The notes under the pieces are model-generated. The model had not been told where the DNA came from and ran no database searches. It saw only the letters and a program-made list of their open reading frames with translations. Shown piece after piece: positions 2,564 through 61,513 of a stretch of DNA of 64,000 nucleotides. The first letter of the stretch is position 1; every line of letters starts with the position of its first letter. The stretch is taken from NCBI GenBank assembly GCA_002897115.2, contig BCIH01000014.1, positions 324,861 to 388,860 on the forward strand. The letters run 5' to 3'. Position numbers and translations under genes: made by a program. This DNA comes from Prototheca cutis. Taxonomy: Eukaryota > Chlorophyta > Trebouxiophyceae > Chlorellales > Chlorellaceae.

Positions 2564-2885
2564 CTGCGCAGCTCGCAGGTGTTCGCGGTGTTGCCGTCAA
2601 TAAACATCGCATTCGACAATCAATGCATCGGCAACATGTGTCATGGCCTACCCCACGTACATGCGTTGAGGTAGCTGTCGACCCATGCGTTCTGTGGTGT
2701 GGCCTCTGAAGTCATGCTTCCCGAACAACCCCACACAGAACTCGGCAGCACGTGTCTTCGGTTTCCCTAATTCTTATTTAATGAAGGAAGGACACACGAC
2801 AGTGTGGGACGTGCCTGTGTGGATGCGGGCAAACGCCCCTCCCGGTTCAAGGTCGGACCGGGAATCCGCGAGGAAGGTGCTGGCT

Positions 2886-3592
2886 ACCATGCAGGGCAAA
2901 AATAATGCCAGCTCAGCCAGCAACAGCAGCACATCACCCCGGGGGTTGCTGGGCATCACGGATGGCCCGAAAATTTCCACACTCTGCATGGCAATAGGAA
3001 GGTGGATGACTACCTCAAATGGCGGACCACCTCCGGGGCTGTTTTCCCTTTCCCGGGCAAGCAGCACTGGGCTCGTTGCCCCGGGAAGGGAGCCCCCAGG
3101 CCTTCGACCCCCAGGGCTGCTTTCCCTTCCCGGGGCAAGGGAAGGAGCCCCGGGGTTCCGACCCCCAGTTGAAAGGCTATAACCCCCCAGGATGGATGGA
3201 TGAATGTTCATCAGCACTGCGGTGCTGGGCGCTGGAAGCGCAGAGGCCGCTGGCCGGTCTTCCGCAGGCTCTGCACGATGTGCCTCATGTTCAGACACGC
3301 CATCAGGTCTCTGTTCCAGAGACGATGCTTGCCTTTCGGGAGCGGCACTCCTCGTTGGTGCAGAGCAGCAGCCCGTGGCACACCACAGTGGGCGTCTGCT
3401 CCCTGCGGTACGGGCGTGGGTTGGGCACGACCTGTCCTGCTATTAGAAGGAACCCAACCCATTCTCAGAGCGACGTGGCCAGGGAATGCGGTCCAACAGG
3501 CATTTTGTTTGGGAGGCCTGCCCTTGCTGTGCAGGTGGGAGCTCGCGAATCCCGAGAAGGTTTCATCATTTTTGCGCTGCATTCTACATTCG
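2886..3592 (-). mobile_element. dispersed repeat copy 1 with Fanzor/TnpB-like C-terminal relic
   Basis: One of three copies of a repeat shared with 39772-40394 and 53793-54414. On the minus strand it starts near the sequence complementary to AAGGTTTCATCATTTT, carries a degraded zinc-ribbon coding segment (3211-3420), and ends in a non-coding tail finishing at TGCCCTGCA. This copy is about 80 bp longer because the GC hairpin part of the tail (about 3045-3165) is partly duplicated. It lies between the sucrose-phosphate synthase and mitochondrial carrier genes. Ends are approximate; no target-site duplication or terminal inverted repeat was seen. Confidence 0.7.
3211..3420 (-). pseudogene. Fanzor/OrfB zinc-ribbon fragment, frameshifted (copy 1)
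   Basis: Minus-strand reading gives PYRREQTPTVVCHGLLLC then CTNEECRS in one frame and HRLWNRDLMACLNMRHIVQ in another. Compared with copies 2 and 3, one base is missing between the second cysteine pair and the WNRD motif. The pattern of a cysteine-containing HGLL segment, CTNxEC and WNRDxxAxxNMxxI followed by a basic GQRPxxFxR tail matches the C-terminal zinc ribbon and last RuvC aspartate motif of TnpB/Fanzor nucleases. No N-terminal domain or complete RuvC core is present, so this copy cannot encode a nuclease. Confidence 0.6.
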
Positions 3593-30126: not shown

Positions 30127-32317
30127 ATGCGTGCCGGGCAGCTGTACCTCGCTTGTTTCGCCTTTCGAGCCGCACAAGCCCTCCTGCTCCAGACATACTT
30201 TGCCCCTGATGAACAGTGGCAGAGCCAGGAGGTGGCACACCGACTGGTGTTTGGGTGAGCTTCTGCCGCTGTGGGGACTAGGGGTTTTGGGGTTTGGTTG
30301 GAATGGCAACAGTAGAGGGGTTGTTCACGATCCATGGGATTGGACAGAGGTGAAGTGTTTCAGGACGTGCTCTGGTAAATATGGTCGACTGGTTGCCCGA
30401 GTCCTGGGCATGCATGTGCCTCTGCTCGATGGCGAAGTACATGCTTCTGCTTTGTGGGATTCAGCCCATCCATTGACTGTCAGACACCACCGGGCTGCTC
30501 ACATGCCACCACACCACCCGCCTCGCCATCCCCCCAGGAAGGGCCACTTGACGTGGGAATGGACCGAGGGTCTGCGGCCCTACCTCCACCCGCTGTTGTT
30601 TGCGGCGCCACTGCGGTTACTGGCTGTGGCAGGGCAGGACTCGCCGGCCGCGGTGTGGGCCGCACCCCGGCTGGTGCAGGCCGCCGTTGCGGCTCTTGCT
30701 GACTCGTCGGTGACCGGACTGGCCCGTGAACTCACGCCCGATCTGGGCCGCTGGGCCACGCTGTGCACGCTGGGCTCCTGGTTCTCGGGCTACGCCATGG
30801 TCCGCACGTATAGCAACGCCGCCGAGGCCGCGTTGTGCGCACTGGGCACGCTGTTGTGGTTGCGTGCACGGCCCGGAGCGCGCAAGGCAGGGCCGACGGC
30901 CGGTGCCCAGGTGCCCTGGCTATGTGTCGCCGCGACGGCGACGGCGCTGCGCCCCGCTGCCGCGGCCTACTGGTTGGGCCCCGGTCTGGCCCGGCTGGTC
31001 TCGTTGCGGGGCGCCAGGCCGCGCGTGAAAACTGTGGCGCTGGCGTCCATCACGGGTGCCACAGCGCTGGCGGGTTCGACAGCGATCGACCGATGGGTGT
31101 CGGGGCACTGGGGGCTCGCGGCCTGGCGTTTTTTGGCCTTTAACGTGCTGCATGGCGGCAGCGCACTCTACGGCACCCACCCCTGGCACTGGAATGCGAC
31201 GCAGGGACTGCCGGCCGTGCTTGCCAGCTATGTGGTGCTCCTGGTTCCCGGGGTCGCCTCACTGCACCTCCTCGACAGGTCTGCTGGGTGTCTGCTTGTT
31301 CGTTTGTATTTATTCGTGTGTTGGCATATTATTCACTTGCTTATGTTATGCCGGGCTGCCGAGTCGGATCATGATGTGTTTGAACAGGCGGCCAGTCACC
31401 TCCTTTTAGAGCCAGGCCTCTGGACCAACACCCACAGGGAGGGTCGCCGTGCGGCACTATCGTTGGTTTTGGCCGCAGGCTGGTCTGTGGTGGTGGCCAG
31501 TCTGCCAGCGCACAAGGAGTTTCGATTCCTGCTGCCCACGCTGCAGCTGTGCATGCCACTGCTGGGTCTGGGAGCCTGGGCCCTGGCCGGTGGCGTGGGG
31601 CTGCGGGGGGGCCCGCGGCGCCGTCACCGTGTTGGACGCCTCGTGCTGGCGGGCACGGTGCTCGTGCAGATCATCTTTTGGCTGTTTTTTGGCCTCGTCC
31701 ATCAACGGTGAGCAAGGTCTGTCTGGTCAGGGGAGGAGGCGGGCTTGGACTGATCAAAGGCTGACGGCCAGCCAGCTTGCCAGTCATCCAACAGCGGCAG
31801 TACAACAATGACGCACGTGCACAGACGCTGCACCCGCTCCCATGCACACAGGGCGCAGGTCCAAGTGATGGATGTGCTGGCGCGAGCGGGCCAAACAGGC
31901 CGCAGCCCCGCCAGCGTGCTGTTCCTGACGCCCTGCCATGCCACACCCTACTGGTCGGCGCTGCACGGCACCAGGGTGGGCCGGCTGCGGTTCCTGGACT
32001 GCTCCCCGGCACAGGCCAGGGCGGCCGTCGCGGCGCTGAATCACGAGGAACGCGCATGGCTGCTGTTTCCGACCGAGCTGTGCGGCGTGGAAGAAAGCGA
32101 GCGCGCATGCTTTGAGCGGCAACCGGCCGCTGTCGCGACTCGGCTGCTGGAGACCGCACGGCCCAGCCTTATTGTGGCCTTCAAAGGTGCACCACCGGGG
32201 CTCGACGCGCAGCTCAAAGCTAAGGGGTACGGTGTCATGGAGACCCTGCAAAACTGCTGGTTCCAGACGGACGATGACTACGCATGCACGCTCAACGTCT
32301 GGGCGGCGGAAGTGTAG
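30127..32317 (+). CDS. PIGB: GPI mannosyltransferase 3 (PIG-B/GPI10)
   Basis: ER membrane GT22 enzyme that adds the third mannose of the GPI anchor core from dolichol-P-mannose. Four exons: 30127-30254, 30538-31278, 31438-31707, 31852-32317; 534 residues. The catalytic luminal loop TYFAPDEQWQSQEVAHRLVF and GHLTWEWTEGLRPYLHPLLF are diagnostic, followed by YGTHPWHWNATQGLPA, PAHKEFRFLLPTLQLCMPLL, and the C-terminal FLTPCHATPYWSALHG domain specific to PIG-B. About ten hydrophobic segments fit the multi-pass topology. Exon phases all agree. Confidence 0.92.
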
Positions 32318-36221: not shown

Positions 36222-38773
36222 TCAGAGGCGGTGGACGTCCACTCGGATGGCCTCGCAGGCGGCAGTCCGGCGGTCTGTGGCTGGCGCAGTGCAGATGCGG
36301 GCGAACGTTCCTCGACTGGCCCGGCCGGGGTTGACTGCCACGCCCCCCCTGCTGCCGGGCAGCGCCCTGGCAAAGGGCGCAAGGTCCGAAGGCACCAGCA
36401 GCACCCCGGGGGGGGTGTCATGGGGAATTGCCAGCCCCGTAGTCGCAGCACCGCAGTCCAGGGGCAGGCCTGGGGGGGGCGGGAACAGCGGGAAGTAGGA
36501 TTCCTGGTCTGCCACATGTGCCGCGAGCGCGGCGGTGCGCTCGCCTGGCGGAGACGGGCCCAGACTGGCATCCCGGTGCACCAGCTCCTCGCGACCCGCG
36601 GCCATCAGCCAGTCGGCGGAGCACGCACCCAGTGCCAGGCCCGTGCCTGCCAACTCCACAGTCGCCGGGTTTGGCAGTGCCATGATGCCCCCTGCCACAG
36701 GGGGCAGTGCCGCCGCGGGGCTCGGGAACACCGGAGTTTGGTGCAAGTCTTGGACCGAAGGCACCAGCAGCACCCGTGTGCTGCGGTGCGTCTCGGCAAA
36801 TGCCTGCACTGGAGCCAGCACCTGCAGTATCGTTGGTTTTGTTGACAGGGAGGTCGAGTGGAGGAGAGGTCTGTGCAGGTGTGTCAAGCGGGGCATCAGA
36901 ACCACAGGTGCCCCGGGATTCGAAGAACGCGTGATGCATGGAAAGACCGTGGCTTTCAACGACATGGATCGCAGCACATTCTGCATCCAAGTCCATCCTT
37001 GCTCCCCTCTTAAAACAGACCAGGGGGGCCAACCAACAGAGGAAACAGCCAACGTCCGTACCCGGCTTTCAAATATGGTCTGGAAGGTCTCGTCGACCAG
37101 ACCCGCTCCAAGTTGCGGGTGTGCCTCGTCCACAAAGGGTCCCATGAGCAGCAGGCACGCGGGCCGAAGCTCGCCGCATCGCCGCAGCAGCGCGTGCAAC
37201 GGGGCGTACTCCAAGTCGCTCGCCGCGGTGAACGGTCCCGCAGCGGCAACGACTGACGCTGGCGCTGCGTCAGCGGGCGGTGGCCGGGCCGCGGACGCTG
37301 ATGCAGCAGCGGTCTGCCCATCCACCACCAAACCCCTCGGTCGACAGGTCACCACTTCGGCTGCGACGATGCAGTGGCCCGAGGGGTTGCTGCCCCTGAC
37401 GGCCACCACCTGCCCTGGGAATAGACGGTACGAGGACACGTGGGACAGGTCCAGCTTGACCCTGGCGCCGCCAGACACACGCTCACTGCCCTCCAGCAGC
37501 ACAGACTGCGGGTTGAGCCGACCGGACTCCGTGCCTGTAGTTGTTCGGTTGGGGGGGCAATTGATGAATGTTTCCTTCTGCGAGAAGGGCTTCCCCGCAA
37601 TGGGGATGGGTTCCCTGTCAGGCTCAACAAACTTTCCCCCTTTCTTTCTTTCCCTCTGCATAAATCCCAGCAAACCAACGACAGACCCACGCACCAGAGT
37701 CGCAGCAGATGCGGCCGACAAATGTGGCGGTGGTCTGGCAGACCGTGCCGACGGGGTGGGGCCGCGCCGCTTCGTCCCCTGCGTTTTCCAGGGCAGATTC
37801 CCACACTGCGATGCGCGCCTCGAGGTAGGCGGCCCGCACCTCCAGTCGGTCGGCCCCAAACCGTGACCCGGTCGGTGCGGGATGGCCCAGGACGATGATT
37901 TCAGGCCGTGGAGTACCATTCTCAGCCATACAGCAGGGGAGCTCCGGGTTGAAGCTGCACACGGGGGCCACTGGGCCCTCCACAGCCGGCAGTGCCGGTG
38001 CCGCAGTGGGCCGCGCCGCGGTAGTCGGGCCAGTCGTCGGCCTCGCAACTCCAGCGGGAGATGCCGCGGCTGCCAGCATCGATTCCATGCCAGATCCCAC
38101 CGTCTTGGCTTGCATGTAGGGGCTGATGCGCTGGTTTGGTGCGACAACGCCCTTGCCATGAGGCGGGTTTCGCCTGTAGGGCCACATGTTGGGGTCGGTG
38201 GTGACAGGGTGGGACGGCTCTGGAACAGGCCAAGGAGGAGCTCTCCCAGTTCCAGCACCAAGCGCAAGAGCATGCATGTCAACAACCAATAACTGGAGGC
38301 ATTGAAATCCCCAAGCGTTGTATGGGCCTACCCAGTTGTGTTAGTTGCGTCTGTCAGGCACTTGCTGCTCTTCAAGGTGTTGCTGGCAGAGAATGCCCGC
38401 ACATCCTCCAGTGTCACTTGGGCCGCTCCAAACCTGACAAAGTAGAATGACCGGTTGTGGGGGGACGGCGGTGAGCAAGGGAAACATCATTTCACTGTGT
38501 TCCCTCTCCAGGGTGCAAACCTTCTCCCAGGGGAGGGGCCGCATACTCCCATCCGCCCTCAAATGCTATGGCCGATGGCTGGATGATCACACTATGCAAC
38601 CCACAAAACGAGCACCTGTTTATGGTCATGAAGCGATCGAATGCAGCTGCGAGATCGCCGGGATCGGCTCCATGTTTGCCTGCAATACCCGCGAGTTCCT
38701 GGAGCACGCCCGGCTCGACAGCCCTGTAGGCCGTCGAGTGACGGAGCAGGACAGTGTGGATAGCTTCATCCAT
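36222..38773 (-). CDS. POLA2: DNA polymerase alpha subunit B (p70/Pol12)
   Basis: Accessory subunit of Pol alpha-primase that links primase and polymerase at replication origins. Five exons: 38616-38773, 38332-38433, 37695-38242, 37062-37534, 36222-36821; 626 residues. The N-terminal helical domain starts MDEAIHTVLLRHSTAYRAV; a disordered linker follows. The OB fold includes CQTTATFVGRICCDSG, SVLLEGSERVSGGARVKLDL and SSYRLFPGQVVAVRGSNPSG. The inactive phosphoesterase domain shows CGELRPACLLLMGPFVDEAH, TRVLLVPSVQDLH, SYFPLFPPPPGLPLD, PPGVLLVPSDLAPFA and GVAVNPGRASRGTFARI. Exon 3 uses acceptor GGGAG at 38243-38247 to keep phase; this is the weakest junction. Confidence 0.92.
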
Positions 38774-39771: not shown

Positions 39772-40394
39772 TACCGTGCAGGGCAAAAATAATGCCACCA
39801 GCTCAGCCAGCAGCAGCATCACATCATCCCGGGGGTTGCTGGGCATCCCTGATGGCTGACAATTTTCACACTCTGCAGGGCAATAGGAAGGTTGACGACT
39901 ACCTCAAATGGCGGACCATCTCCGGGGCTGCTTTCCCGTCCCGGGGCAAGGGAAGGAGCCCCGGGAGTTCCGACCCCCAGTTGGGAAGGCTATAACCCCC
40001 CATGATAGATGGATGGATGTTCATCAGCGCTGCGGCGCTGAAAGCGCTGAGGGCGCTGGCCGGTCTTCCGCAGGCTCTGCACGATGTGCCTCATGTTCAG
40101 ACACGCCATCAAGTCTCTGTTCCAGAGACGATGCTCGCTGTTCGGGGGCCGGCACTCCTCGTTGGTGCAGGGCAGCAGACCCTGGCACACCACCTCGGGT
40201 GTCTGCTCCCTGCGGTACGGGCGTGGGTTGGGCATGCCTTCTCCTGCTGCCGAGAAGGAGCCCAACCCATTCTCTGAGCGATGCGGCCAGGGAATGCGGT
40301 CCAACAGGCATTTTGTTTGGGAGGCCTGCCCTTGCTGTGCAGGCGGGAGTCGACAAATCCCGAGAAGGTTTCATCCTTTTCTGCCGGTAATGTA
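39772..40394 (-). mobile_element. dispersed repeat copy 2 with Fanzor/TnpB-like C-terminal relic (best preserved)
   Basis: Second copy of the 620-bp repeat, lying between the convergent RPB10 and histidinol dehydrogenase genes. Minus-strand order: conserved upstream part (40240-40394), intact zinc-ribbon frame (39990-40304), non-coding tail to 39772 with a GC stem at 39922-39964 whose arms CCGGGGCT and AGCCCCGG pair perfectly. The right edge is set by where similarity with copy 3 stops (near TAATGTA). No terminal repeats or target-site duplication could be recognised. Confidence 0.72.
39990..40304 (-). pseudogene. Fanzor/OrfB zinc-ribbon C-terminal fragment, open frame (copy 2)
   Basis: An open minus-strand frame contains PRPYRREQTPEVVCQGLLPC, CTNEECRPP, RLWNRDLMACLNMRHIVQSL and KTGQRPQRFQR before a stop at 39990. 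The C-x5-C and C-x4-C spacing and WNRDxxAxxNxxxI motif match the C-terminal zinc ribbon of TnpB/Fanzor; the aspartate of WNRD corresponds to the last RuvC catalytic residue. The upstream domains (wedge, REC, first RuvC acids) are absent, so the frame is a relic or a non-autonomous element, not a nuclease gene. The ATG at its start is not conserved. Confidence 0.65.
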
Positions 40395-49271: not shown

Positions 49272-50126
49272 GGCTCCCACCGCAACAGAGATCGCGATGA
49301 TTCGTCGGACAAAAATGTCCACGAACACACTGTTACATTACATGTTAATATCAAAGTTCGGCAGTGCTGTATGAGGTCTGTCGTGCCCAGCGCCATTGAT
49401 CCATTCCGGTCGACTGGGGTTGACTTCGCATCGGTGTAACGGTCCGATCGGCGATCCCCCTACCGTTGGGCACGCCATAGTTAATCCCTACACGGTCCTG
49501 TACTAACTGTAAGCCTTCGCTACGAGGTTACAGTACTGCGCTAGCGATAGGATCATGTAAGAATGCCCACTGGAGGAATGGGACAGGGATGGAGTAATAT
49601 ATAACGGTCGGTGGGCGGTTTGCCTCGAGAACAGGAAGAAAGGTTGACAAGATCAGTTTTGGGGCCCTACAATCGGCCTCCGGAACGAAACACCAATGTT
49701 CAAACATCCCAGGTGGGGTACGATCCCAGAGAACCTGGGGGCGCACCCCACGGAGATCCGCGAGGGTAATCCAGAAAAAAACTGGCCTCACAGCACGCGT
49801 TCAATGGTGCTGTTCCGCTGGCCAAAGCCAGCGGAGTGTCTTGGTGATGAAATCATACAAGGTGGAGCGCCTGGGAGGCAGGGGACATGCAAGGGGTTGC
49901 TGCGCGTGGTGCACCGGAGGGCCTGGAAGGGATTTTCGGGAATCGCTCAAACGTTCCCGTTCCCGAGCCCGCAGCACCTCGCACGAGCCCGCAGCAGTTC
50001 CGCACGGCGCGTGTGCGGCACCCTGGCCCGCTCGGCTTGCACTCGATAACAGATCACATTGTACTTGGAATGCATGCATCCAACCAGTAAAGAAATGCCG
50101 CCTTAGAGTGCCACGCGCTGTCGCCA
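49272..50126. promoter_or_regulatory. intergenic: divergent CFAP298-like / ALG6 promoters
   Basis: 855 bp between divergent genes. No exon recognised. AT-rich word TAATATATAA lies at 49594-49603; a short imperfect hairpin (arms CTGTAAGCC and GGTTACAG) occurs at about 49507-49533. Confidence 0.35.
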
Positions 50127-53616: not shown

Positions 53617-53792
53617 CGTGGACGACTGGCCTTTCCCTGGAGCTCGGGGCCTGCACGACCAAGCCCAAAGTCGTCGATTGAATGGTAATGACGAAAGGAT
53701 GACGATGTTGACTCTCGATGGAAGTTCGAATGGTGAAAAGGCGGCTTGTATTCTGTTCGGAAGCTGATATACGTGTTGCGGGGAAGGGCTCT

Positions 53793-54414
53793 TCCGTGCA
53801 GGGCCAAAATAATGCAACTAGCTCAGCCAGCAACAGCGTCACATAACCCCGGCGTTACTGGGCATCACTGATGGCTGTGAATTGTCACCCCCCACAGGGC
53901 AATAGGAAGGTGGACCACCTCAATGATGGACCACCTCCAGGCCTGCTTTCCCTTTCCGGGGAAGAGAAGGAGCCCCGGGGTTCCCACCCCCAGTTGGGAA
54001 GGCTGTAACCCCCCAGGATGGATGGATGTATGTTCATCAGCACCGCACTTTTGGGCGCTGGAAGCGCAGAGGCCGCTGGCCGGTCTTCCACAGAGTCTGC
54101 ACAATGTGCCTCATGTTCAGACACGCCATCGAGCCTCTGTTCCAGAGACGATGCTCGCCTTTCGGGGGCCGGCACTCCTTGTTGGTGCAGCGCAGCAGCC
54201 CGTGGCGCACCACCTCGGGCGTCTGCTCCCTGCGGCAGGGGCGTGGGCTGGGACCGACCTGTCCTGCTGCCAAGAAGGAACCCAACCCATTCTCTGAGCG
54301 ACGCGGCCAGGGAATGCGGTGAAACAGGCATTTTGTTTGGGAGACATGCCCCTGCTGTGCAGGTGGGAGTCGACGAATCTCGAGAAGGTTTCATCATTTT
54401 CTGCCGTTAATGTA
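53793..54414 (-). mobile_element. dispersed repeat copy 3 with Fanzor/TnpB-like C-terminal relic
   Basis: Third copy, between the AGTRAP-like gene start and the ETF alpha stop. Same minus-strand order as the others: conserved lead (54290-54414), zinc-ribbon frame (54037-54285), tail to 53793. The hairpin block (about 53936-53980) is shorter and slightly degenerate. Its edges coincide with copy 2: CCGTGCAGGGC on one side and TTCTGCCG-TAATGTA on the other. Confidence 0.7.
54037..54285 (-). pseudogene. Fanzor/OrfB zinc-ribbon fragment, open frame with key residue changes (copy 3)
   Basis: An 82-codon minus-strand frame reads PRPCRREQTPEVVRHGLLRC, CTNKECRPPKGEHRLWNRG, SMACLNMRHIVQTLWKTGQR. The first ribbon cysteine of copies 1 and 2 (VVC) is Arg, and the WNRD aspartate is Gly, so both zinc binding and the RuvC acid would be lost. 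It confirms the family pattern while showing decay. Confidence 0.6.
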
Positions 54415-56601: not shown

Positions 56602-59600
56602 ATGTTGGGATCATCACAGAAGCGTGCTGCCGTCGTTATGGATGGACAAGAGAACCTTCCATCCAAGCGGGCGGCCCCGGACGTGGGTGGGGAGTCGCAG
56701 CCCACCCTGCTGGACGCCCTGGACGATCTGGACGATGCCCCAGAGCCCGTGGAGGTGGTGGATGAGGGGGTGCTCGGGGAGGCCGGCAGGAACTGGTGCA
56801 GACCCCCAGCCCCTGCCCTGAACCCCGACACTGACAGGCTGGGTGCGTGGTATCGGGTGGGGTTTTCAGTGAGCACTGCGCGTCAGATGCATGCTGCACT
56901 GGGTTCTTGAGATCCTTTTGGTGCAGCGGCGTGCAACCTCTCCAGTGCCTGGGCTGGCCCATGCCTGTGCCATGACATGCTCGACCGTCATGCCCCACTA
57001 TTCCAGTGTTCCAGCAGCTGGAGATTGATTACACGTCGGCCCCCTCCAACCGCCGATTCTACGGTGAGCAGCTCAAGGAAGCGCCCATCATCCGGATGTT
57101 TGGCGTCACCGAACATGGTAAGCCTGGATAACGCTGGCGTGGGACTGATTTGTTGTGTGTGTGTGTGTTTCTCTTTGTAGTAGAACTGTCTGTCCTGAAG
57201 CTATCATGGAGACTGAGGAGCTGAGAATTTTTCTGGCCGCCCACTCCCCCTGCAGGCAACAGTGTGTGCACGTTTGTGCACGGATTTGAGCCGTACTTTT
57301 TTGTCGAGTGCCCGCGCCCTGCCTTTAGCCCAGACGACTGCCGGTCGCTCAAGGAGCTCTTTGACGTGCGTAGGGTTTTCCTTTGGTAGGTAGACATCAT
57401 CCTGCTGCCGCATGCTGCACGATGACAAGCCCAGACCCCCACCCTTTTGTGAACCCCCTTTCCTGCTGCAGAACTTGTTGTCTAGCCGGGACCGGAGTGG
57501 GAACGGGCGGTGCTGCCTGCGGGTGGAGGTGGTCCAAGCACAGACCATGATGTTTTACCAGGCCACGACGGCGCGGCCGTTCCTGAAGATCACGCTCACG
57601 CTCCCAGGACTGGTGGCACCGGCACGGAGCCTGGTGGAGGGCGGTCTGTGGATGGAGTGGCTGGCCTGCCGCCTGGCCCAGACGACGTACGAGAGCAACG
57701 TGCTTTATGTGCTGCGCTTCATGGTCGATCACGGCATTGTCGGCGGCAACTGGGTCGAGTTGTCCCCGGGAAAGTACTCCTTGGTCCCCGCGCAGGCACG
57801 TAAATATCTGTGTGTGTGTGTGTCGGCAAGGGGATGGTCCTGTGTTGGGCTGGCCGTTAGGTGGATGCACACCACTCACGGCCGGCACCAGTCGTTGCTC
57901 ATCCCGCTTTGCCTGCCCTGCCCAACGACGAGCCCTGCAGGCCCAGACCTCGCACTGCCAGCTGGAAGCCCACATCGGCGTGGCAGACCTGATCAGCCAC
58001 GTGCCCGAAGGCGAATGGGCCAAACTGGCGCCTTTTCGAATCCTGTCTGTCGACATCGAGTGCCAGGGTCGCAAGGTGAGTGTCGCTTGGGGTCCTCAAA
58101 GAAGGCTCTCGTGCCTGTGCTGAACCGGTCCAAGGTTCACATGCTGCCCCCTGCACCTCTTCACACCCATGCGCGTACATGCAGGGTCATTTCCCAGAGG
58201 CGCAGCACGACCCCGTCATCCAGATCGCATCCATGGTCACGGAGATGGGCTCTACCACGCCAGCCGTGCGCAACATCATGACCCTGCGCAGCTGTGCTCC
58301 CATCGCCGGCGCAGGTGCGTCGGTGCTGAATTGATCCGACATGAATGCATGACGCTTCTTACAGCGCTTGCCAAAACCCTCTCACTCCCTCGCCCACAGA
58401 GGTGATGTCGTTTGAGGACGAGAGGTCGCTGCTGCTGCGGTGGCGGGACCTGGTGCTGGAGACGGACCCTGACATGATTATCGGGTATAACATCGTCAAC
58501 TTTGACCTGCCATACCTGCTGGACCGGGCGACGACCCTGGAGCTGCCGCAGTTTTGGGCGTGGGGCCGCATGCGTGGGCGGCGCTGCCGCGTCAAGGACG
58601 CCCGCTTCTCCAGTAAAGCCTACGGCACGCACGAGTACAAGGAGATTGGCATCGAGGGGCGCGTGCAGTTTGATCTCCTCCAAGCCATCCGCCGCGACCA
58701 CAACCTCTCCTCCTACAGCCTCAACTCTGGTGGGCTGGTTGTGTGGGGCGGTGGGGTGGGGGCCCGGTTTGTGTGGGGTGCGGGGCCTGGGCGGGTTGGA
58801 AATTGGGAGAGCCGTCTCCAGCCCCAGGTCCCTTGTACACGAACACACAACCATCCCCAAAAATATAAACTGCTGCAGTCTCGGCACATTTCTTGGGGGA
58901 GCAAAAGGAGGACGTGCACCACACGGACATCAGCACGCTGCAGGACGGCAATGCCGAAACGCGGCGGCGTCTGGCGGTGTACTGCCTCAAGGACGCCTAC
59001 CTGCCACAGCGCCTGCTGGACAAGCTGATGCTGATGTACAACTACGTGGAGATGGCACGTGTGACAGGCGTGCCACTGTCCTTTTTGCTGGCACGGGGCC
59101 AGAGCATCAAAGTCTTCTCCCAAATCCTGCGAAAAACACGGTCCCGTGGGCTCCTCGTGCCAAACATGAAGGTTGGTACTCCAGGGGGAAAGGGGGCCCT
59201 GGTGGCGGTTCATATTCACAGTGTCTTATCATCGTAGGCAGTCCTGCTTATCACTCCCCTTCTTCAAAAACAAAAACATGGCAGCGTGGCGGGCCTGCTG
59301 GGGAGGATGGCGTGGCGTACGAGGGTGCCACCGTTTTGGAGCCAAAGGCCGGGTACTACTCGACGCCCGTTGCAACACTGGATTTCGCGAGCCTGTACCC
59401 CAGCATCATGATGGCACACAACCTGTGCTACACGACGCTGCTGCCGCGGTCCACACACAACAGCTTCCCTGTCACTGGTTCTTCCCCTGCCGCCGTGGAG
59501 TCACCCAGCGGCGAACGGTTTGTGACGCCCAGGCTGCGGCCGGGCGTGCTGCCGGAGATCCTGCGCGAGCTGCTGGCGGCGCGCAAGCGTGCACGGAAAG

Positions 59601-61513
59601 AAATGGCGGCCGCGGAGGACCCCTTTGTCCGCGCCGTGCTCAACGGGCGCCAGCTGGCACTCAAGGTCTCGGCCAATTCCGTCTATGGCTTCACGGGGGC
59701 CACCCTCGGTGCACTGCCGTGCCTGGAAATCTCCTCCTCCGTCACCTCGTTTGGCCGTACCATGATTGAGGCCACCAGGTGCAGCATAGGGTTGCCTGTG
59801 CGCTCTGCGATGGGCATAAAACTTGCTCTTCCATCGCCTTTGACCCTACATCATTGCCCCCCCGTCCCCGCCAACCACCCCTGACCCTCAACAAACACTG
59901 ACAACAGGCAAAAGGTGATGGCGCACTTCAACAAGGCGAACGGGTACCCCGCGGATTCCGATGTCATCTATGGCGATACCGATTCCGTCATGGTCAACTT
60001 TGGCGTGCCCGACACGGCCATGGCCATGGCTCTGGGCCAGGAGGCCGCCGGCCTTGTGTCTGCCACATTTGCCGATCCCATCAAACTGGAGTTTGAAAAG
60101 GTACCCGTTGGGTGTGGTTCGGAAAGATTGGCCCGACACCACCTGGCCCTGATCCCCTCCCTGGCCCCCCTCTGCCATCCACCCCCAGCTCACCTCGATT
60201 CTTGCAACGCTCACCAGCCGGCACACCCACCCAACACTCCCAACAGGTTTACAATCCGTACTTGCTGATCAGCAAGAAGCGGTACGCGGGGCTGCTCTGG
60301 ACCAAGCCGGAAGCTTGGGACAAGATTGATACCAAGGGCATCGAGACGGTGCGCCGCGACAACTGTCTTCTGGTCCGCAACGTCGTGACCGAGTGCCTGG
60401 ATTTGATCCTGGTCAAGCGCGACCCCGAGGCAGCGGCGCAGTACGTCAGGGGCGTCATCGCCGACCTGCTCCAGAACAAGCTTGACCTCAGTCTCCTCGT
60501 CATCAGCAAGGTCAGCCGGGTTGGGCCCGGGCGGTCCGGCAGTCGTGAATTGGAGTTGGTCTTAGGGGCTGGCTGCGTTTCACATCCATGCCTGCAACAC
60601 ATCGCACCAGGGCTACCAACCGCCCTAGAATGCAGCCCTCCCCCAAACCCTACAATAACCAATTCCAAAACAGGGTTTGACCCAGGACGCCGGGGACTAT
60701 GATAACAAGGCGGCGCATGTGGAGCTGGCGAAGAAAATGAAAAAGCGCGACCCGGCGACGGCACCCGCGGTGGGTGACCGCGTGCCTTACGTCATCGTCA
60801 AGGCGGCGAAGGGCGCCAAGGCCTACGAAAAGGCAGAGGACCCACTGTACGCGCTGCGCCACGGCCTGCCCATCGATGCACAGCACTACCTTGACCACCA
60901 CCTGGCACAGCCGCTGCTGCGGCTGTTCGAGCCGTTGCTGAAAAACCCGCGTGAACTGTTCACGGGGGCGCACACGCGCACCATCACGCTGTCCACGCCG
61001 TCCTCGGCATCGGGAGGCATCATGCGCTTTGCCCAAAAGCGTGCCACGTGCCTGGGGTGCAAGGCTGCGCTGGGTGCCGGCGAGCGCACCCTCTGCAAGC
61101 ACTGCAAACCCAAGGTCTGTTTTGTTGACTGGCTTTTTAATTGTTGGGGGAATTTTTTAATTGTTGGGGGAATTTTTTCGTCGTGAGTAGTCGTTTGACT
61201 GGTCGTGCCGTGATTGGGCATGGACACGAGCTCTCCCCGAGTCGTCGTTCCAGCTTCCAACCAACTGAGCCTGGGCTGCTCAACCTCAAACAACCGACAG
61301 GCGGCGGAGATCGTGTGTCGGACGCTGGGCACCGTGAACGAGCTGGAGACGCAGTTTGCGGCGCTGTGGACGCAGTGCCAGCGGTGCCAGGGGTCGCTGC
61401 ACCAAGACGTGCTGTGCCGATCCCGCGACTGCCCCATCTTCTACCGCCGCATGAAGGTGCAAAAGGAGATGGGTGAAGCCGCGGCCTCCCTCGCCCGCAT
61501 CGACGACTGGTGA
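56602..61513 (+). CDS. POLD1: DNA polymerase delta catalytic subunit
   Basis: Lagging-strand replicative polymerase with 3'-5' proofreading. Thirteen exons: 56602-56842, 57007-57117, 57256-57365, 57472-57795, 57941-58075, 58185-58314, 58400-58729, 58879-59171, 59285-59778, 59908-60100, 60247-60510, 60674-61114, 61301-61513; 1092 residues. Exonuclease motifs: RILSVDIEC (about 299), [10 protein letters not shown] (about 385), YCLKDAYLP (about 493). Polymerase motifs: [11 protein letters not shown] (about 594), [13 protein letters not shown] (about 686), YGDTDSVM (about 745). CysA (CLGC...CKHC) and CysB (CQRC...CRSRDC, iron-sulphur site) close the protein. The intron after exon 4 appears to use a GC donor (CAG/GCACGT); this choice gives the spacing expected before CQLE. 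All phases agree. Confidence 0.96.
61141..61178 (+). repeat. 20-bp tandem duplication in POLD1 intron 12
   Basis: Two near-identical 20-bp units beginning TTGTTGGGGGAATTTTTT, just after the donor at 61115. Confidence 0.8.

Follow-up and report, generated by a model that had tools for sequence, protein, structure and literature searches.

Three short repeats in a 64,000-nucleotide window of the Prototheca cutis genome (the window being the whole stretch of contig BCIH01000014.1 that was analysed) are members of a dispersed family that most probably, with a probability of about 80%, consists of non-autonomous ghost derivatives of a Fanzor1 DNA transposon that spread non-autonomously. All three copies of the ~620-bp repeat lie on the minus strand, as the preliminary description of this DNA had it, and the terminal repeats allowed their ends to be refined to the positions listed in Table 1. 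Compared with copy 2, copy 3 is 86% identical and copy 1 is 88–90% identical, the latter in two pieces. The preliminary description had also held that the copies share the zinc ribbon and last RuvC aspartate of the TnpB/Fanzor C-terminus and that the rest of the protein is missing from them. The second of these claims is correct, with only the last ~65 codons kept, but the first applies fully to copy 2 alone (61 in-frame codons). Copy 3 has WNRGS in place of the parental WNRDL and has thus lost the last RuvC Asp, a zinc-ribbon Cys is altered as well (VVRHG), and copy 1 is frameshifted.

Table 1. Positions of the ghost elements, their parts and other features (window coordinates unless a contig handle is given)
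Feature	Position	Strand	Remarks
Ghost copy 1, 620-type	2885..3586	-	702 bp; additional stretch in 3′-UTR; coding remnant frameshifted
Ghost copy 2, 620-bp Fanzor element	39772..40394	-	Query copy; terminal repeats 40367-40394 (left), 39772-39798 (right)
Copy 2 left terminal repeat, type I	40367..40394	-	26/28 versus type-I left end; CTG just before
Copy 2 Fanzor1 C-terminus remnant, 61 in-frame codons (zinc ribbon and last RuvC Asp)	40035..40217	-	P0001 versus 9cf0, E 2.5e-14
Copy 2 right-end block present in all three forms (full-length, 620-bp, 354-bp); candidate region for an omega-RNA scaffold	39772..39918	-	
Copy 2 right terminal repeat	39772..39798	-	25/27
Ghost copy 3, 620-type	53792..54414	-	Last RuvC Asp to Gly in coding remnant
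Short ghost of the second Fanzor/TnpB-like family (A)	49712..49950	-	~57 bp left end and ~185 bp right end, including last ~30 codons of family-A gene
Alg9-like mannosyltransferase	30131-31711		
DNA polymerase alpha/epsilon subunit B	36222-38285		
Family-B DNA polymerase	58502-59884		
Carboxylase/carbamoyl-phosphate synthase ATP-grasp	62541-63845		
Fold-back mini-element L112	C5:67192-67313		
Fold-back mini-element L113	C7:263340-263448		
Fold-back mini-element L114	C8:807732-807843		

The 104-residue window ORF (P0001) alone matched the solved Fanzor1 structures of Parasitella parasitica (9cf0, E 2.5e-14) and Spizellomyces punctatus (8gkh, E 7.5e-7), which bears out the proposed TnpB/Fanzor homology even though Pfam at E ≤ 1 gave no family for the window ORFs (0 of 5 proteins). 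This silence is what could be said for the view that the Fanzor likeness reflects chance or low complexity and that the repeat is an unrelated non-coding one; the match at 2.5e-14, together with a full-length parent in the same genome that matches at 1.9e-54, refutes that view and leaves it a practically negligible probability. Rfam at the gathering threshold returned no match in the window, and a distant blastn comparison with a phage collection gave none either.

The Fanzor family suspected in the preliminary description has a full-length member joined to the same 3′ end, the C20 element, which is ~3.43 kb in length and has both ends and a 708-residue open frame (with scattered N). Two other parental elements have both ends, namely C18, with an internal deletion in the gene, and L067, which contains an N run. 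Terminal repeats flank the gene in all three elements, as in a gene carried by a transposable element. Fanzor1 proteins are recognized by a DPG motif in RuvC-I and by a catalytic Glu rearranged to six residues before the first CxxC (PMC10711439). The C20 frame has FIDPGRGDL, aligned to LMDPGRRDL of 9cf0, and the rearranged Glu six residues before the first CxxC in IDEFRTSKRCPAC, aligned to IDEFRTSSFCPKC; IDEFRTS is also aligned between the parent and the solved Fanzor1. The zinc ribbon and last RuvC Asp are present in the parent as CPAC, CHGLLRC, CTNEKC and LWNRD (in LWNRDLMACLN). With 565 residues matched, the parent gave E values of 1.9e-54 to 9cf0 and 1.7e-30 to 8gkh; PF07282 scored 21.6 bits on it, below the 26.3-bit cut-off. 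Given that it shows the published sequence features and matches solved Fanzor1 proteins, the parent is a Fanzor1 by sequence criteria, and RNA-guided DNA cleavage is its predicted activity.

A close relative occurs elsewhere: the 647-residue protein P0006, encoded on an ENA contig of 3 kb, shares 72% identity with the parent Fanzor across 67% of the query. N runs interrupt Fanzor loci of both families in the assembly (L057, L060, L065, L066, L067, L068, L069 and L071), which prevents a count of intact genes at these loci, and long frames there may be artefacts of N. A check of long frames near Fanzor matches covered two places, L068 (4597 residues) and L057 (2483 residues), and both very long frames were rejected as proteins on account of the long stop-free N runs in front of them.

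The family was sought in the whole genome (19.9 Mb in 23 contigs). The right-end pattern, with up to two mismatches allowed, occurred 293 times, full-length copies included, versus 0 for the same pattern reversed. The 620-bp query gave 371 first-look candidates and at least 45 matches from the best 40 of these 371 that were scored, and the coding-segment query gave 297 candidates, with at least 150 matches from the 150 scored. The similarity among the repeats is far beyond chance. Since a single query was used to pick the copies studied, by best match, the figures for divergence and subfamily shares favour query-like copies. A second, 354-bp form consists of a left block of ~150 bp and a right block of ~145 bp around a short middle, with the coding piece absent; its query gave 376 candidates, and the best 40 of them that were scored yielded at least 45 matches, 40 of them nearly full-length.

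Positions 1 to ~150 of the 620-bp repeat correspond to the left end of the longer elements, and positions ~158 to 623 to the parental last ~65 codons, the 3′-UTR and the right end. Because the parental 5′ terminus is also carried, the ghosts are internal deletions with both terminal repeats. The suggestion that non-autonomous elements spread the 3′ ends of a Fanzor family is therefore right as to the Fanzor parent and the non-autonomous spread, but not as to 3′ ends alone. The 620-bp repeat has the same terminal repeats as the Fanzor locus, and the Fanzor gene is absent from the ghosts except for the last ~65 codons in the 620-bp form, none remaining in the 354-bp form. We infer, with good support, that a single internal deletion would have produced each ghost form; each deleted form then probably proliferated as its own line of ghosts, mobilized in trans via its terminal repeats by a putative transposase.

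The terminal repeats are imperfect and ~28 bp long. Right ends read, as the reverse complement, TACCRTGCAGGGCAAAAATAATG, whereas left ends fall into type II, TACCRTGCAGGGCAAAAATGATG, and a diverged variant, type I, TACAKTAMCGGCAGAAAATGATG. There were 21 type I and 13 type II left ends in the 620-bp form, and 18 and 17, respectively, in the 354-bp form. The idea that the two types mark different insertion boundaries was rejected, as they align without gaps and both occur in both ghost forms; they are treated as variants. End statistics were based on 78 elements, of which 9 were dropped for weak ends and 69 used. TA was present at 60 of the 69 left ends and 59 of the 69 right ends. Head-to-head insertion at TA is seen at L067 (with L105) and at L025/L042, where neighbouring left ends are separated by a single TA and nothing else, so that the junctions are near-palindromic; the lone TA fits TA duplication. 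To judge from these ends, the elements insert at TA, with an apparent duplication of the TA target.

TG stood directly before the left TA in 40 of the 69 elements, its mirror image following the right TA in 18; the background frequency is 0.11, and the left–right contrast has a Fisher p of 2.6e-4, so that a conserved dinucleotide lies upstream of the left repeat. Its frequency on the right is also above background (18/69 versus 11%). The contrast was 24 versus 8 of 35 in the 354-bp set (p 2.6e-4), but in the 620-bp set alone it was 16 versus 10 of 34 and not significant (p 0.21); all these p-values are after the fact, since TG had caught the eye in both sets before the test was made. The S. 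punctatus elements have CATA as their target motif and, correspondingly, a conserved CA before the left repeat (PMC10432273); by analogy, the predicted target motif (TAM) of the P. cutis family is 5′-TGTA.

A profile search of the genome for the Tc1/mariner transposase domain DDE_3 gave no match, the control being positive in 3 of 14 genomes. The transposase searches covered DDE_3 and DDE_1; the latter also gave no match, but its control was likewise silent, which makes this search uninformative.

The two ends are what the full-length form and both ghost forms have in common, the right one over a stretch of ~145 nt that runs to the terminus. Majority sequences were drawn up from 39 right ends of the 620-bp form, 39 of the 354-bp form and 7 of full-length elements, and they agree completely over their last 78 nt. 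The 620-bp and full-length majorities differ at 3 of 148 columns. Known Fanzor loci encode the guide RNA at this position, and it is on the position of the block, its conservation and this published precedent that a guide-RNA role can be proposed. Predicted folding gave mixed results over the 12 stretches for which z-scores against dinucleotide shuffles were computed. The 148-nt right end of the 620-bp majority folded well in the gene sense (z −3.57; 1 of 200 shuffles as good), with antisense and left-end controls at −0.56 and +1.33, respectively. Folds were weaker for the 354-bp majority (−1.71) and for three full-length right ends (−1.04 to −1.70), and a 620-bp 3′-UTR stretch outside the block, absent from the 354-bp form, scored −2.44. 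In a separate computation, the right half of the window copy folded like shuffles (−0.26). When RNAalifold was run on 85 right ends, the alignment did not beat its column-shuffled versions (z +0.55; 70 of 100 equally or more stable; antisense control z −1.38), and a double change was kept in only 5 of 57 predicted pairs. Covariation thus does not support an RNA structure at the right end. On balance, we lean slightly towards the block being a source of guide RNA in ghosts, as a candidate role.

A competing account takes the repeats to be MITE-like internal-deletion derivatives whose ends are kept solely for a transposase, neither the Fanzor piece nor the right-end block having a guide role. 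It agrees with ours on the origin of the ghosts as deletion derivatives and differs over the guide role. The missing covariation and the decay of the coding piece both fit it. So does the existence of fold-back mini-elements of 109–122 bp (Table 1), which indicate that mobility takes very little sequence: at the three loci inspected, elements of 122, 109 and 112 bp have the right terminal repeat at both ends and TA on both sides, and these mini-elements of two right termini hold little of the right-end block. However, the ~145-nt block exceeds the terminal repeat and is present in both ghost forms, with 97.9% identity between their majority sequences; the TG asymmetry at the left end is likewise not what this account would lead one to expect, and published ghosts of the same design have working guide scaffolds (PMC10432273). 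We regard it as a serious contender at clearly less than even odds.

If the ghosts do supply guides, the right-end block would be transcribed as the scaffold of a Fanzor guide RNA, with the flanking host DNA serving as the guide. Using the guides of ghosts, Fanzor made from full-length copies could then cleave the corresponding empty site, marked by TGTA and the guide sequence, and such cleavage may help the individual copy to home or to be retained.

The coding remnant looks like a passenger, with no sign of selection on a protein. Over 61 codons, the mean variation at codon positions 1, 2 and 3 was 0.093, 0.068 and 0.080 in 39 ghosts, versus 0.022, 0.011 and 0.042 in 6 full-length copies (7 were supplied, and L067 failed the motif filter); these are descriptive means, and the ghosts have no third-position excess. 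The CHQL frameshift reading is common to 12 of the 39 ghosts, and a two-base-shorter stretch matching this shift was found in 10 of 34 measurable ghosts. Ghosts therefore seem to descend from a master copy with a frame that had been disrupted before it multiplied. On the other hand, the remnant is stop-free with a length divisible by three in 15 of the 39 ghosts, and it is intact in copy 2, as might be expected if it were itself functional, for example as a small zinc-ribbon protein acting as a competitor or helper of Fanzor. That explanation is very unlikely: it is at odds with the variation at third positions and with the spread of the frameshift along with the element, some of the 15 are partly out of the Fanzor frame, copy 3 lacks a zinc Cys as well as the final RuvC Asp, and the 354-bp ghosts do without the piece altogether.

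The window also holds a short ghost of a second family, A (Table 1), which was the only full match among the best 40 of 112 genome candidates scored. Family A matched PF07282 with E values down to 1.0e-8, whereas its best match to a solved structure, a TnpB-like protein, was weak (E 0.025); resting on the profile, the family is labelled Fanzor/TnpB-like with no type given. In the genome, PF07282 gave 97 matches among the best 150 of 181 candidates, a number that includes weak matches and some members of the first family. A family-A element of ~4.85 kb was found in L058 (with ~200 N), and derivatives of ~1.15 kb at L056, L059 and L063.

Ghost Fanzor elements are already known in kind, and the green-alga family described here appears to be a further example with a conserved flank and right end. 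The nearest parallel is the ghost Spu-1 of S. punctatus, with 134 ghosts of ~550 nt versus 42 full or partial Fanzor genes (Saito et al. 2023, PMC10432273). Small-RNA sequencing was done on the Fanzor loci of that fungus, and cutting directed by scaffolds from ghosts was reported, 75-nt ghost guide scaffolds from four loci being functional with the Fanzor protein in human cells (PMC10432273). The P. cutis ghosts (~620 and ~354 bp) resemble Spu-1 in being short, in having the terminal repeats and right-end region of a Fanzor locus but no Fanzor gene, and in having a conserved dinucleotide immediately before the left repeat. No transposase was found here, and its authors reported none within the Spu-1 repeats (PMC10432273). 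As far as the published account of Spu-1 serves for comparison, the differences are that the dinucleotide is TG here and CA there, that one ghost form here retains the last ~65 codons, that one Fanzor family here has ghosts of two sizes next to a second-family ghost, and that the present elements are known from their sequence alone.

Other Fanzor-bearing elements are comparable in part. In Cyanidioschyzon merolae, CMe-1A is likewise a Fanzor1 element of ~3 kb, present in ~150 copies that are ~80% identical, and TE-N2_CMe is a short relative that shares one end with it, as ghosts share ends here (Bao and Jurka 2013, PMC3627910). Unlike the P. cutis elements, those of C. merolae are described as having no terminal repeats, and TE-N2_CMe matches the 5′ 635 bp rather than being a two-ended internal deletion (PMC3627910). 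The Mariner-like elements of the PUl-4 type also have Fanzor1 as their sole protein, terminal repeats and TA duplication; however, according to the same report (PMC3627910), their terminal repeats are identical to those of confirmed Mariner elements, whereas no DDE_3 transposase was found here. The commonest repeat of Auxenochlorella carries a Fanzor gene (PMC12633428), and that host lineage appears close to ours, although the two repeats are likened by description only. Among the host genes between the window repeats, 4 of 10 scanned ORFs have an assigned family (Table 1); for the gene at 30131-31711, the closest of 4 proteins at E ≤ 1e-20 is an Auxenochlorella protein (46% identity over 74%). 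Among the papers listed on Fanzor, TnpB and Prototheca transposable elements, no title or abstract opening describes these ghosts.

Ghosts are a main clue that Fanzor may act in trans. It is conceivable, though doubtful, that ghosts throughout the genome serve as a library of guide genes: the 3′ DNA flanking each ghost would steer one or a few Fanzors, made by the full-length copies, in trans to the matching empty allele (TGTA plus guide), and the whole family would home into its sites and be retained there by homologous repair. Such repair is described as unusually efficient in Auxenochlorella and Prototheca (PMC12633428). Auxenochlorella can be transformed by homologous recombination (PMC12633428), which would make the trans-guiding idea testable in a laboratory strain, and the P. 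cutis family offers a concrete prediction in its putative TAM.
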